NCBI RefSeq assembly: GCF_032854445.1
Contig: NC_088300.1
Location: forward strand, 682,001-746,000
From: Liolophura sinensis
Lineage: Eukaryota; Mollusca; Polyplacophora; Chitonida; Chitonidae
DNA length: 64,000 bases
Direction of reading: 5' to 3'
Part shown: one piece after another, positions 684 to 41,201 of the stretch
Position numbering within the stretch: the first letter of the stretch is position 1
Layout of the letters: each line of letters begins with the position of its first letter
Translations under genes and position numbers: made by a program
Notes under the pieces: model-generated
The model's input: only the letters and a program-made list of their open reading frames with translations
Databases searched by the model: none
Told to the model about the DNA's origin: nothing

Positions 684-3600
684 CTGCACCAGTATCATAT
701 TCAGTTTACCAAGGTAAACTTTTTCTCTTTCCAAGAGATTGGGATCTGAAGATGTTTTGATTATCAGTCCCACAATATACTTCTTGATTCCTGTCCGAAA
801 AAGACAAAACAAGAATGTCTCAAAATCAATAAAACTGAACACAAAGATTTACAAAGGCATGGGAATGGATTCTACATATTGTTATCCAAAGACACTTTCT
901 TTATACAATGGCTGATAAAAGTTTCTTCAATTCATCTGGCAAAGAATCTTTACCTTCACACTGTGGTCTTGGTAATACTTTCCACCTGGTTTTTATGACA
1001 TTTTCTAATATCTGTAGGGCATAGTACTTTGTCTGTTGGTTACTTGAATATTCTAAGATAGTGTCCACTCGCGTCCAGGCATCAGGATGTTCCTTCAAGT
1101 TGGTGAGAACTTCCTGGGCCATCCTCTGTTGCTGTAAAGTATACAGTAGAGAGTGTGAATACATGCATCTGTAAAGGTCTGTGTCATACAAGAGGCCAAC
1201 CTATCAACATCCACAAAATCTATCACTGAAATGATCCACTAGCCTTCGTGATAATACTTCACTTATACAGTATGACGGCAGCCAGCATTATGGTGGGTGG
1301 AAACTCACGACCATCTGCAGGTTGCTGGCAGACCTTCCCACGTACGACCGGAGAGGAAGCTTGCATGAACTGCACACGAGCTCACAATGACCGCATTGGT
1401 GGGAGGCTCCTGGGTCACTGCGCCGTGCTGGCGAGCTAACCCCCTCGGCTGCGGAGGCTCAATTGTTTACTTATATGATTGGTGTTTAAGGCCGCCCTGA
1501 AAGTTTTATAACTGATCCTGTTTATGGAGGAAACGGGGCACTGCTTGTGCGTCATTTATAGTCAAGCACTAGGGAGCTTTCAAGGTAAGCCGTTAGTCCT
1601 CCCTAAATACAGCACTTTTGCCACTCTAAAAACCTGACTTTCTGATATATATGTCTATGTACAATATCCGGTATTATGTATTTAGAAATTATTTCATGTT
1701 GTTGACATGCAAAACTTGCATGTTTTCTCAGCACAAAAGACAATTCTGGCAGACTCATACATTTCAGTACCTCAAAATTTACACTGTAAATGAAATTGGC
1801 AAGGTACATAATACATACATTGCTACAGGGTTCATACAAAAATATGAAAATGAAATTCAAGGAGTATTTCATGTTGTTGACATGAAAAACTTGCATGTTT
1901 TCTCAGCACAAAAGACAATTCTGGCAGACTCATACATTTCAGTACCTCAAAATTTACACTGACTGTAAATGTAACTGGCAAGGTACAAGACACATATTGC
2001 TACAGATTCATACAGATATATGAAAATGAAATTCAAGGAGTATTTCATGTTGCTGACATGAAAAACTTGCATGTTTTCTCAGCACAAAAGACAATTCTGG
2101 CAGACTCATACATTTCAGTACCTCAAAATTTACACTGACTGTAAATGTAATTGGCAAGGTACAAGACACATATTGCTACAGGGTTCATACAGATATATGA
2201 AAATGAAATTCAAGGAGTATTTCATGTTGTTGACATGAAAAACTTGCATGTTTTCTCAGCACAAAAGACAATTCTGGCAGATTCATACATTTCAGTACTT
2301 TGAAATTTACACTGACTGTAAATGTAATTGGCAAGGTACAAGACACACATGCTGCTACAGGGTTCATACAGGTATATGAAAATAAAATTCAAGGAGTTTT
2401 CCAGGAGTTTTTTGTCATTTTCAAGGCTAGTTTAAACATACCATGGTTCAAATTACAGACTATATTTTAAGTCTGAATTATAGAGGCTTTAATTTACATG
2501 TATGCTTGCTTTTGCAAGAAATATCTGCCCCTCACCTATGTAATGTGACACTTTCTTTGACCCGGCCTTGGCTCAGTCAAATAATGAACACCATATATCA
2601 TTATGCACGGCTTCCACTGGGTCAGTATTTTTTTTAGCCAGTCACTTTAGCCACTCATCAGATTTTGTAGTAAATATTATTTTTCTTTAGCCATACTTCC
2701 TAAGCGGCCATGACTCTTCTAGGTCTCCTTCTGTAATTCGTTTTTACCTGCCTTGGTGTAGCTGCTAGAATCAGATTGGTCTCTTCCGGCTATATCAGGA
2801 GTTTATCAAATGTTACATTTAGAACAATTGCCCTCAAAATAATGAACCAATGCTTGGCAGCATGTTTTTGTTTTTTGAAAAAAAAAAATCAATCCTTCTT
2901 TCAACCTATCTGTAGGATCCTAGTAAAATGTAATTTCCTCTATCAGAAGAAAGTGTTACGAAATTGATTCCTACATTCAGTTTATTTAAATGCAACATTA
3001 TGATCAGTACATTGGTGTAGCACAGTCTGACAGGAGAAAATGAGAAGGCACACACATTTATGTAACAGCACATATTCTGAAACATTCAATTTACTTCGTA
3101 TCCAAAAAAATAGTTTATTAAGTGAAAAACTTTAAATTTTTCATGGGAGGTGAATTCATTTACAGGTGTTACTCTACCTTGATTTATTTCCCTTGATAAT
3201 TTTTTTTTTTTTTTTTTTACAATTGGCAATGTAAGGCATTCCCCAAAAATGCCATGATTCTCATTCGTTATTTAACAAAAATGATTTCAAGCGTTATTTA
3301 ATGTAAGTCAACTTGCAACAATGCTGAGCCCCCTTTGTAGATTTCTGTCAAGTAATCGCCATACAAGTGTGTTGTTGTTGATTCACCAAAATGAGGCCCT
3401 GAAAGTCCTTGGATAAATTGAGTTATACAATAACTAGGCTATTGTGAAATGTTTTGTATTTCATAGAGGTGTATTGTACAAGGACATACTGTGTTGAAAA
3501 TCCGTACTGGACGAGACCCGTAAACCTCGGCCAAACTGGTCACTGCTAAACAAAGACGAAGATGCACAAAGTGCTGGCTAAATTGGTCACTGCTAAACAA

Positions 3601-4030
3601 AGACGAAGAGGCACAAAGTGCTGGCTAAATTTCCAATTATTTAATGGGCATTTGTCATTCTATCAGTGATGGCATGAGGCATATACATGTATATTACTGG
3701 TCCAGTGGAACACAAATATGACCAGTAAAAATACATAGTTATTTGATCCGATGTCCAGATCCCTGAAGCAGTTTGTACAATGTGTGAAAAACAGGTGATA
3801 TGAGACAGGTATTTGGAAAGATGAAACAAACAAAAGGACATGACGGCATGCAGTCCACTGACGAATGATCATTCCATTAACTTTCTGTCTGATATACTTA
3901 CCTGTGGCCCTTCTCCATTGTACATGCATGTTACAATGTTGTCCAGTAAGTTGATGTCGAGCTTCTGGTTGAAGTCCAGGAGCTTGGCAGCCTCTTCTGG
4001 GTATGAGGAGTTCATTACCACAGGCGGCAT
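684..4030 (-). CDS. XPO1: Exportin-1 (CRM1), 5' part, three coding exons
   Basis: XPO1 is the nuclear export receptor that binds leucine-rich export signals together with Ran-GTP. Three coding exons are visible: 4030-3902 (start codon, 43 codons, ends CAG before GTAAGT), 1131-954 and 790-684 (ends CAG before GTGAGG). Phases join cleanly to give about 138 N-terminal residues. They include LLDFNQKLDINLLDN, RMAQEVLTNLKEHPDAWTRV, QILENVIKTRWKVLP and KLNMILVQ, nearly identical to the importin-beta-like N-terminal HEAT repeats of animal CRM1. The rest of this roughly 1070-residue protein lies beyond the left edge. The start matches the family: MPPVV... leads straight into the conserved helix. The second exon has tandem acceptors (CAGCAACAG), so the junction may carry one or three Gln. 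Identification is near certain; the exact junction is less so. Confidence 0.96.
1250..1463 (-). mobile_element. tRNA-derived SINE copy in an XPO1 intron
   Basis: Contains GACGGCAGCCAGCATTATGG, GGTTGCTGGCAGACCTTCCC and the tRNA-like head (GAGGCTCCTGGGTCACTGCG). Reverse orientation, close to full length. Confidence 0.75.
1690..2395. repeat. 177-bp tandem repeat, four copies, in an XPO1 intron
   Basis: TATTTCATGTTG recurs at about 1690, 1864, 2041 and 2218, a period of 174-177 bp. Each unit includes AACTTGCATGTTTTCTCAGC and ACAATTCTGGCAGA. Copies are highly similar, so the array is young. Confidence 0.9.
3531..3627. repeat. Two-copy 48-bp tandem duplication
   Basis: GGTCACTGCTAAACAAAGAC followed by GAAGATGCACAAAGTGCTGG occurs twice with few differences, in an XPO1 intron. 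Confidence 0.85.
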
Positions 4031-40900: not shown

Positions 40901-41201
40901 GAGGTAGATTGTGATTGTATCTTACCCCTTAGCAAAATTTCAATTCTGATGAGACCTTTAGTCCACATGTCCAAAAAATTTTGGGGCTTTTTTTTTTTTC
41001 AGTTAATGAATAATGTCCTGTAGTTTTAATTTCTGCTACGCTATTTCTGTGAAATAAACATGTCCAAGTAAAATGGAAGATGATGACAGCAGTTATCAAG
41101 TTTATATACCCTTCCTTAGGCTCACAGCATCAGGTATGGGGTAACTGTTTATTTTTCTCCTTGTTTTGCAGAACAAAATCATCCAGCAGGCTGCTGTATG
41201 A
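28979..41201 (+). CDS. COQ6: COQ6, ubiquinone biosynthesis monooxygenase, twelve exons
   Basis: COQ6 is a mitochondrial FAD-dependent hydroxylase acting on the ubiquinone ring. Exons: 28979-29156, 30811-30945, 31535-31593, 31915-32178, 32610-32717, 33156-33215, 36594-36701, 37237-37315, 37971-38094, 39641-39756, 40444-40610 and 41172-41201. All introns are GT-AG and phases join to 475 residues (human about 468). The N-terminus is basic and Ser/Leu-rich, a probable mitochondrial presequence. The FAD fold follows: [13 protein letters not shown] near residue 45, IGADGSNS at 213-220, and the UbiH/COQ6 signature [20 protein letters not shown] near 370. Family blocks [23 protein letters not shown] and ETQRQRHN are present. 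No key residue seems missing. Upstream ATGs are out of frame. A variant ATTAAA at 41616-41621 may end the mRNA. Confidence 0.96.
29521..29945. mobile_element. 425-bp foldback/MITE in COQ6 intron 1
   Basis: Arms 29521-29686 and 29769-29945 are inverted copies. Examples: CATCCCAAAGGTAAATATT versus ATATTTACCTTTGGGATG, and ATGGGTCCT versus AGGACCCAT. The loop is about 80 bp. No coding capacity, typical of a non-autonomous foldback element. Confidence 0.75.
31325..31496 (+). mobile_element. Old SINE remnant in COQ6 intron 2
   Basis: AAGTGGGAAAGTTTGTCTG, AGATCAGTGGTTTACCCC and ATTCTTGAGTGTGTTGTA align loosely with the SINE core; the tail is AATCAGATAAATAAAATA. Confidence 0.4.
33216..35340. other. 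Large COQ6 intron, unique part
   Basis: Intron 6 of COQ6 extends to 36,593. In this first part I see only non-coding DNA, with a moderately GC-rich stretch near 34.38-34.53 kb. No gene is recognisable. Confidence 0.5.
35385..36030. repeat. 38-bp minisatellite in COQ6 intron 6
   Basis: Unit AAAGGTATGAGTGCCTTGTC followed by GAAACGTGATACGTTGAT, about 11 copies at 35,385-35,810 and 3 more at about 35,910-36,030. Interrupted by the first 29-bp units. Confidence 0.95.
35830..36525. repeat. 29-bp minisatellite in COQ6 intron 6
   Basis: Unit GGGACATGGTACCRATATAA followed by AGGCTCTTT, about 17 copies. The right part is a composite in which GGCTGTTCACTGTTATTCTC is inserted between units. Each unit contains TATAAAGG. 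Confidence 0.93.
38165..38815. repeat. 31-bp minisatellite of splice-donor-like units, COQ6 intron 9
   Basis: Unit GCCAGGATGGTAAGTAGC followed by TTTGAATAATCAA, alternating with a GGTAAGCAGTGTTG variant, about 21 copies. It begins about 70 bp after the true donor of the exon ending at 38094. Most copies carry a near-perfect GTAAGT, GTAAGC or GTGAGT site on the coding strand. One copy (about 38,485) lacks it by deletion. Confidence 0.96.
38868..39230. repeat. About 170-bp tandem duplication, 2.3 copies
   Basis: GTTTTAATTTTTGGTGGATA, ACACAGATGA-GATGTGTCA and CACAGTTGTCA blocks occur twice, and a third partial copy begins near 39,195 (CTCCAACTGTTACCCGCATA). Confidence 0.8.
39732..39915 (+). repeat. 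Tandem copies of a COQ6 exon end and its splice donor
   Basis: The last bases of exon 39641-39756 and its donor (GTTCAACGGGGCAGTGATGT then GGGTAAGT) recur three more times in the intron as GTTCAACAGGGCACTGATGT, GTTCAAAAGGGCAGTGATGT and GTTCAACAGGACCGTGATGT. Each is followed by GGGTA. Period about 50 bp. Confidence 0.88.
40119..40262. repeat. TG-rich microsatellite, COQ6 intron 10
   Basis: Pure GTGTGTGTGT followed by degenerate TGTGTATGTGGGAACG-type repeats. Confidence 0.85.

Follow-up and report, generated by a model that had tools for sequence, protein, structure and literature searches.

The window analyzed in this work is a 64,000-nucleotide stretch of the genome of the chiton Liolophura sinensis, corresponding to C6:682001-746000 (C6 being contig NC_088300.1) and located near the start of this 82.49-Mb contig in a genome of 609.46 Mb. 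Gene models, built from open reading frames, splice sites and family searches, revealed four genes adjoining in the order XPO1 (-), ZNF410 (+), FAM161 (-) and COQ6 (+), with consistent exon structures and a span of 57 kb when XPO1, which extends left beyond the window to C6:665,981, is taken whole. The same order and orientation had been proposed in an initial annotation of the sequence and were confirmed by the rebuilt genes; its further claim, that nothing else is recognized between the four, holds for the 10 of 289 listed frames of at least 60 amino acids that were scanned against Pfam, among which no further protein gene was found (small genes are possible). Likewise, a search with the bacterial code found no tRNA in the window, and no Rfam family reached its gathering score there. 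Here we examine this linkage and its relation to two separate regions of the human genome, 14q24.3 and 2p15.

The identity of each gene was assessed on the joined exons (Table 1). The XPO1 N-terminus (176 amino acids) matched human Exportin-1 with E=6e-91 vs E=3e-10 for Exportin-5, and on sequence grounds the gene is Exportin-1 and not another exportin; the dinucleotide AG directly precedes its ATG, and therefore an upstream exon in the 5' untranslated region is possible. The COQ6 model, in which some exon ends were set by hand from splice phases, passes the equivalog cut-off of NCBIfam TIGR01989 (507.6 vs 489.3 bits); one short internal exon, predicted from the human protein to lie between 36701 and 37971, was not located. 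The FAM161 protein covers positions 2-364 of the 364 in PF10595, has no PDB match, and is encoded at the one FAM161 locus found in the genome (1 PF10595 match among 21 scored candidates). Its open reading frame contains two FKAxPxP motifs, FKAAPVP and FKAKPVP, as defined in PMC7551519 (this and the other published sources are cited by their PubMed Central identifiers). According to published accounts, FAM161A and FAM161B are paralogues confined to vertebrates and have a single orthologue in invertebrates, whereas a third human member, FAM161C, is reported in few mammals only (PMC7551519, PMC11500687).

ZNF410 exon boundaries were set by hand, with phases consistent over the six exons in 11096-20450. 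The joined fingers matched human ZNF410 (PDB 6wmi) with E=2e-68 over 147 amino acids, all five fingers being collinear. In the same match table the many-fingered ZNF568 ranks above (E=2e-74, via four stretches); ZNF410 is favored because of the collinear five-finger match and the near-identity of stretches such as FTTAGNLKNHRRIHTGE. When the residues that contact bases were selected by the usual position rule for zinc fingers, 18 of the 20 positions in the five shared fingers were alike in chiton and 6wmi, as judged by eye. An additional C2H2 finger (ZF0) lies at 11110-11178, just ahead of ZF1; human ZNF410 presumably has five fingers and none at this position. A 27-base minisatellite of ~113 copies (14995-18051) occupies one ZNF410 intron and is open in three minus-strand frames of up to 875 codons, which gives rise to spurious open reading frames.

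Table 1. Features of the four-gene locus; positions refer to the window.
Feature	Position	Strand	Basis or remark
XPO1 first coding exon	3902..4030	-	43 aa; joined protein vs human Exportin-1
XPO1 second coding exon	952..1128 (ends approximate)	-	joined protein vs human Exportin-1
XPO1 third coding exon	684..791 (684 is the start given in the initial annotation)	-	joined protein vs human Exportin-1
XPO1 fourth coding exon	near 74-193	-	part of joined N-terminus
Candidate XPO1/ZNF410 promoter	5401..6650	.	inferred; CpG observed/expected up to 1.19
ZNF410 N-terminal exon, inside open reading frame	9778..10497 (exon ends not fixed)	+	codon score 17.8 over 9865-10395
ZNF410 exon, extra finger (ZF0) and ZF1	11096..11269	+	splice phases, finger match
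ZNF410 exon, ZF2 and ZF3	14600..14781	+	splice phases, finger match
ZNF410 exon, ZF4	18357..18446	+	splice phases, finger match
ZNF410 exon, ZF5	19091..19273	+	splice phases, finger match
ZNF410 exon	19798..19929	+	splice phases
ZNF410 last coding exon, with stop	20098..20450	+	splice phases; codon score 24.7
FAM161, four coding exons	22955..28747	-	27082-28747; within 25028-25243; within 23511-23657; 22955 to ~23176
COQ6 gene, ATG to stop	28979..41201 (41201 is the end given in the initial annotation)	+	splice phases, TIGR01989
COQ6 exons 1-6	28979-29156, 30811-30945, 31535-31593, 31915-32178, 32610-32717, 33156-33215	+	splice phases
COQ6 later exons	36594-36701, 37971-38094, 39641-39756, 40444-40610, 41172-41201	+	splice phases

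The chiton order was compared with published vertebrate gene orders, in which we take C14orf45 and BBOF1 to be the same gene. Human 14q24.3 displays PNMA1, C14orf43, PTGR2, ZNF410, FAM161B, COQ6, ENTPD5, C14orf45 and ALDH6A1 (PMC10137620), with ZNF410 at 74,353,317-74,398,991, FAM161B at 74,399,694-74,417,117 and COQ6 at 74,416,636-74,429,813 (PMC5845532), which bears out the ZNF410-FAM161B-COQ6 order given in the initial annotation. Turkey chromosome 5 carries ZNF410, FAM161B, COQ6, ENTPD5, BBOF1, ALDH6A1, LIN52 and VSX2 (PMC8470100), and a list for a quantitative trait locus region in pig names the same genes, unordered (PMC8362157). Human 2p15 includes USP34, XPO1, FAM161A, CCT4 and COMMD1 (PMC5426703, PMC10626460, PMC3953211), in agreement with the proximity of XPO1 and FAM161A stated in the initial annotation.

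The wider neighborhood was explored with six markers from 14q24.3 and 2p15, searched genome-wide in two rounds; an unduplicated ancestral locus would predict that such neighbors lie on C6. Pellino was found at one locus in the genome, C6:0.419-0.434 Mb, 0.23 Mb before XPO1. On the other side, 0.2 Mb past COQ6, ALDH6A1 (-) at C6:0.912-0.925 Mb (7 of 14 matches including the best, with 28 of 44 candidates scored) and LIN52 (+) at C6:0.934 Mb (one match, E=1e-5) face apart, on the same side as in the turkey list. CCT4 was assigned to C6:7.82 Mb (12 of 31 chaperonin matches including the best), all 17 GDA1_CD39 (ENTPD) matches listed for the genome fell in four C6 loci (9.88, 28.69, 67.06 and 73.92 Mb), and PEX13, a 2p15 marker, was found on C7:3.76 Mb. 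PEX19, which served as the control, maps to C1, and two loci searched for other purposes, CHD3/4/5 and haemocyanin, are on C9 and C8, respectively. The CHD3/4/5 C-terminal domain was found at one locus in the genome; one locus each for FAM161, Pellino and CHD3/4/5 is the state expected before the second round of vertebrate whole-genome duplication (2R). In the flanks, read over 50 kb to the left and over 100 kb and 80 kb to the right with a 20-kb gap, Pfam domains identified PSME4 (+) at C6:787-807 kb (e.g., PSME4_C) and WDHD1 (-) at C6:867-874 kb (e.g., Ctf4_C), both between COQ6 and ALDH6A1. We take the human positions to be 2p16.2 for PSME4, 14q22 for WDHD1, 2p14 for PELI1 and 14q22 for PELI2; on chiton C6, roughly half a megabase thus holds genes from the two human regions intermingled.

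Like the 14q24.3 and turkey chromosome 5 blocks, the chiton locus has ZNF410, FAM161 and COQ6 in this order, with ALDH6A1 and LIN52 further on, and FAM161 and COQ6 meet at one end. Unlike them, XPO1 directly precedes ZNF410, no ENTPD match lies near COQ6, and PSME4 and WDHD1 separate COQ6 from ALDH6A1. With the USP34-XPO1-FAM161A-CCT4 order of 2p15 the chiton shares XPO1 and FAM161 in one neighborhood, whereas ZNF410 sits between these two genes, COQ6 comes next and CCT4 is 7 Mb off.

Integrating these findings, we consider it highly probable that the XPO1-ZNF410-FAM161-COQ6 linkage is ancestral and was partitioned after the vertebrate genome duplications. The proposal of the initial annotation, that an ancestral locus carried all four genes before these duplications, is supported by the chiton order, the single FAM161, the published vertebrate orders, and the presence of ALDH6A1, LIN52 and Pellino within 0.25 Mb; the marks of a pre-2R block, namely adjacency in an outgroup, a single FAM161, complementary vertebrate subsets and wider markers on C6 (five of six), were each observed. 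Prior to the whole-genome duplications of vertebrates, the ancestral locus would have contained XPO1, ZNF410, FAM161 and COQ6, with ALDH6A1/LIN52 and Pellino close by; it was probably already present in the bilaterian ancestor, because the chiton, as a mollusc, represents a protostome outgroup. The row of haemocyanin units on C8 agrees with this molluscan affiliation. The chiton would have retained this locus. Following the first and second duplication rounds (1R/2R), the 14q24.3 copy would have retained ZNF410-FAM161B-COQ6-...-ALDH6A1-LIN52 and lost XPO1, and the 2p15 copy would have retained XPO1-FAM161A and lost ZNF410 and COQ6; we infer both the 1R/2R timing and the reciprocal losses.

Several observations weigh against an ancestral, later partitioned locus. 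CCT4, a FAM161A neighbor in human, is 7 Mb from the chiton block on C6, the four ENTPD loci are 9 to 73 Mb from it and do not single out ENTPD5, and PEX13 failed as a marker. The concentration of markers speaks for such a locus, as five of the six are on C6 (CCT4, ENTPD, Pellino, LIN52 and ALDH6A1; binomial probability 2.4e-4) and three (Pellino, ALDH6A1 and LIN52) lie less than 0.3 Mb from the block (chance ~2e-8); both figures, however, were obtained for markers of our own choosing, with the 13.5% share of C6 in the assembly as base rate. The names CCT4 and ALDH6A1 were given to the loci with the best match in the respective family, and the comparison as a whole comprises one molluscan outgroup and published vertebrate orders. 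The human strands (ZNF410 +, FAM161B -, COQ6 +, XPO1 - and FAM161A -) and several of the cytobands given above are assumed. Further, the flanks contain an S9 peptidase gene to the left of XPO1 and, at C6:761632-764241 (-), an 870-codon ADAM-type gene without introns, neither of which is known to be linked to the two human regions. To the same side we count an exportin-like locus at C6:67.6 Mb and a second chaperonin-like locus at C6:51.8 Mb, which have no bearing on the linkage.

An alternative in which ZNF410-FAM161-COQ6 alone is ancestral and XPO1 joined it separately in the chiton and human-2p15 lineages draws on the fact that two lineages were compared, and one adjacency could arise twice. 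It demands that XPO1 land beside FAM161 on two occasions, the chance that one of the four FAM161A neighbors adjoins FAM161 being of the order of 1e-3 if 20,000 genes are assumed; moreover, Pellino near XPO1 and PSME4 on the other side represent more 2p genes in the same half megabase (one Pellino paralogue being, we presume, on human 14q). We regard such convergence as improbable, and give slightly less credit still to the notion that only macrosynteny is conserved, i.e., that the genes shared one ancestral chromosome and met again by chance shuffling. With five of six markers on one contig a re-encounter does become likelier; however, shuffling would not lead one to expect four genes in vertebrate order within 57 kb of an 82.5-Mb contig, or ALDH6A1 beside LIN52 on the predicted side, and the dispersed CCT4 and ENTPD loci show how shuffling looks on this same contig.

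A different type of explanation concerns what might hold the block together. FAM161 and COQ6 are arranged head to head with their start codons 231 bp apart (28748..28978), and this interval has a CpG observed/expected ratio of 1.16 vs 0.41 window-wide, an ETS-like CCGGAAGT at 28940 (sole copy in the window) and a YY1-like GATGGC at 28970, just ahead of the COQ6 start; the ETS-like and YY1-like labels are our own assumption. XPO1 and ZNF410 also stand head to head, and two such sites occur in the CpG-rich stretch between them, one ETS-like (5932) and one YY1-like (AATGGCGGC, 5956). This CpG and motif pattern suggests two putative divergent promoters, XPO1/ZNF410 and FAM161/COQ6, the latter being plausible as a common promoter because of the 231 bp between start codons. 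No CpG peak or motif is diagnostic alone, since the 64-kb window has nine CpG peaks, some within repeats, and recurring motifs (CGGAAGT 3, AATGGCGGC 2 and GATGGC 21 copies); CpG peaks were thus set aside as weak promoter evidence, and at the same thresholds the interval from ALDH6A1 to LIN52 showed no peak, though these genes face apart. The overlap of ~0.48 kb between the human FAM161B and COQ6 intervals (PMC5845532) also favors retention of the block by cis-regulation, through these bidirectional promoters or through enhancers inside neighboring genes. Against it stand the abundance of CpG peaks and the small motif counts, the separation of XPO1 from ZNF410 in vertebrates, which implies that their promoter is not indispensable, and the persistence of FAM161A on 2p15 without COQ6. 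We therefore hold cis-regulatory retention to be possible yet somewhat doubtful. More speculatively, two head-to-head pairs with short common promoters could have made the ancestral block hard to break, FAM161/COQ6 being the likeliest bond because the human genes have kept an overlap at one end. The shared FAM161/COQ6 promoter advanced in the initial annotation is plausible, being short and CpG-rich; its supposed role in holding the pair together is plausible at most.

A broader proposal can be put forward tentatively: a bilaterian-old proto-locus of about half a megabase, Pellino-XPO1-ZNF410-FAM161-COQ6-PSME4-WDHD1-ALDH6A1-LIN52, held intact ever since by a series of common promoters, might have been the source of parts of 2p14-p16 and 14q22-q24. 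If this holds true, each human gene could be assigned to one duplicated copy and its loss dated. Two chicken chromosome arms, the left arm of GGA3 and the right arm of GGA5, are relevant to the ancestral linkage, and we take them to correspond to human 2p and 14q, respectively. Both are described as pure chordate linkage group A (Simakov 2020, PMC7269912). Molluscs, amphioxus and vertebrates are known to have kept entire ancestral chromosomes, with internal reordering, and the same source describes the linkage groups as intact in scallop; that pattern is chromosome-scale with much internal reordering, whereas the chiton finding concerns local gene order. OTX1 (2p15) and OTX2 (14q22.3) likewise form a pair split between these regions (PMC2211742). 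Multi-gene microsyntenic blocks kept since the bilaterian ancestor, best in lophotrochozoans, have also been reported (PMC8851819); the main text of that paper names none of XPO1, COQ6 and FAM161. No apparent account of the FAM161 partition was found among open-licence PubMed Central papers, supplements excluded. Thus, the local gene-by-gene partition seems new and the chromosome-scale pattern is already published, and we read the locus as a clear instance of the reciprocal gene loss that follows whole-genome duplication, a familiar type of event and no novel system.

The locus is small and checkable, and allows the vertebrate duplications to be read gene by gene, according to which copy kept which neighbor. 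It accounts for the different company kept by FAM161A, a retinal-disease gene, and by its paralogue FAM161B, provides a FAM161 outgroup, and makes it possible to test if head-to-head promoters (COQ6/FAM161 and ZNF410/XPO1) protect neighborhoods over very long times.

The regulatory target of ZNF410 was also considered, with genome counts of CATCCCATAATA, which we take to be the human ZNF410 motif. There were 145 matches genome-wide vs 73 for the reversed control; the excess outside the CHD3/4/5 locus includes, among the 100 places listed, a minisatellite-like run at C2:6,175,830-6,176,142, with eight exact copies and four of seven spacings of 30 bases. At the CHD3/4/5-type locus (C9:16193305-16255000, 60 kb, including ~35 kb upstream of the first recognized exons), no exact match was found, one match had one mismatch (control 0) and seven had up to two (control 5). 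CHD4 is reported to be nearly the only target of human ZNF410, which acts through clusters of its motif (PMC9181152). At the one CHD3/4/5-type gene found in the chiton there was no cluster such as those reported at mammalian CHD4, and the motif counts were rejected as evidence for a conserved ZNF410-to-CHD4 wiring. Vertebrates may have gained the wiring later, or the motif may be different.

Other features were recorded in the window and its surroundings. Downstream of COQ6, a diverged direct-repeat array (48178-57701) displays many spacings of ~0.85 to 2 kb and pairwise identities of 68-89%; AT and GC skew are pronounced there. Other long minisatellites lie at 12472-13125, 18744-19047, 22328-22678, 35380-36524 and 38170-38813. 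A 148-codon frame (62753-63196, minus strand), which starts with MAPHEKV after a short leader, adjoins a CpG peak at 62801-63900 and is without a Pfam match, as are two possible small genes at C6:640,221-640,490 (-) and C6:903,065-903,520 (+). The intronless ADAM-type gene, perhaps a retrocopy, has Reprolysin and Disintegrin domains over the cut-off and ADAM17 and ADAM10 domains below it. Finally, eight haemocyanin beta-sandwich units, of a family we take to be molluscan, stand in a row on one strand at C8:37880506-37891931, in frames of 429-529 codons.

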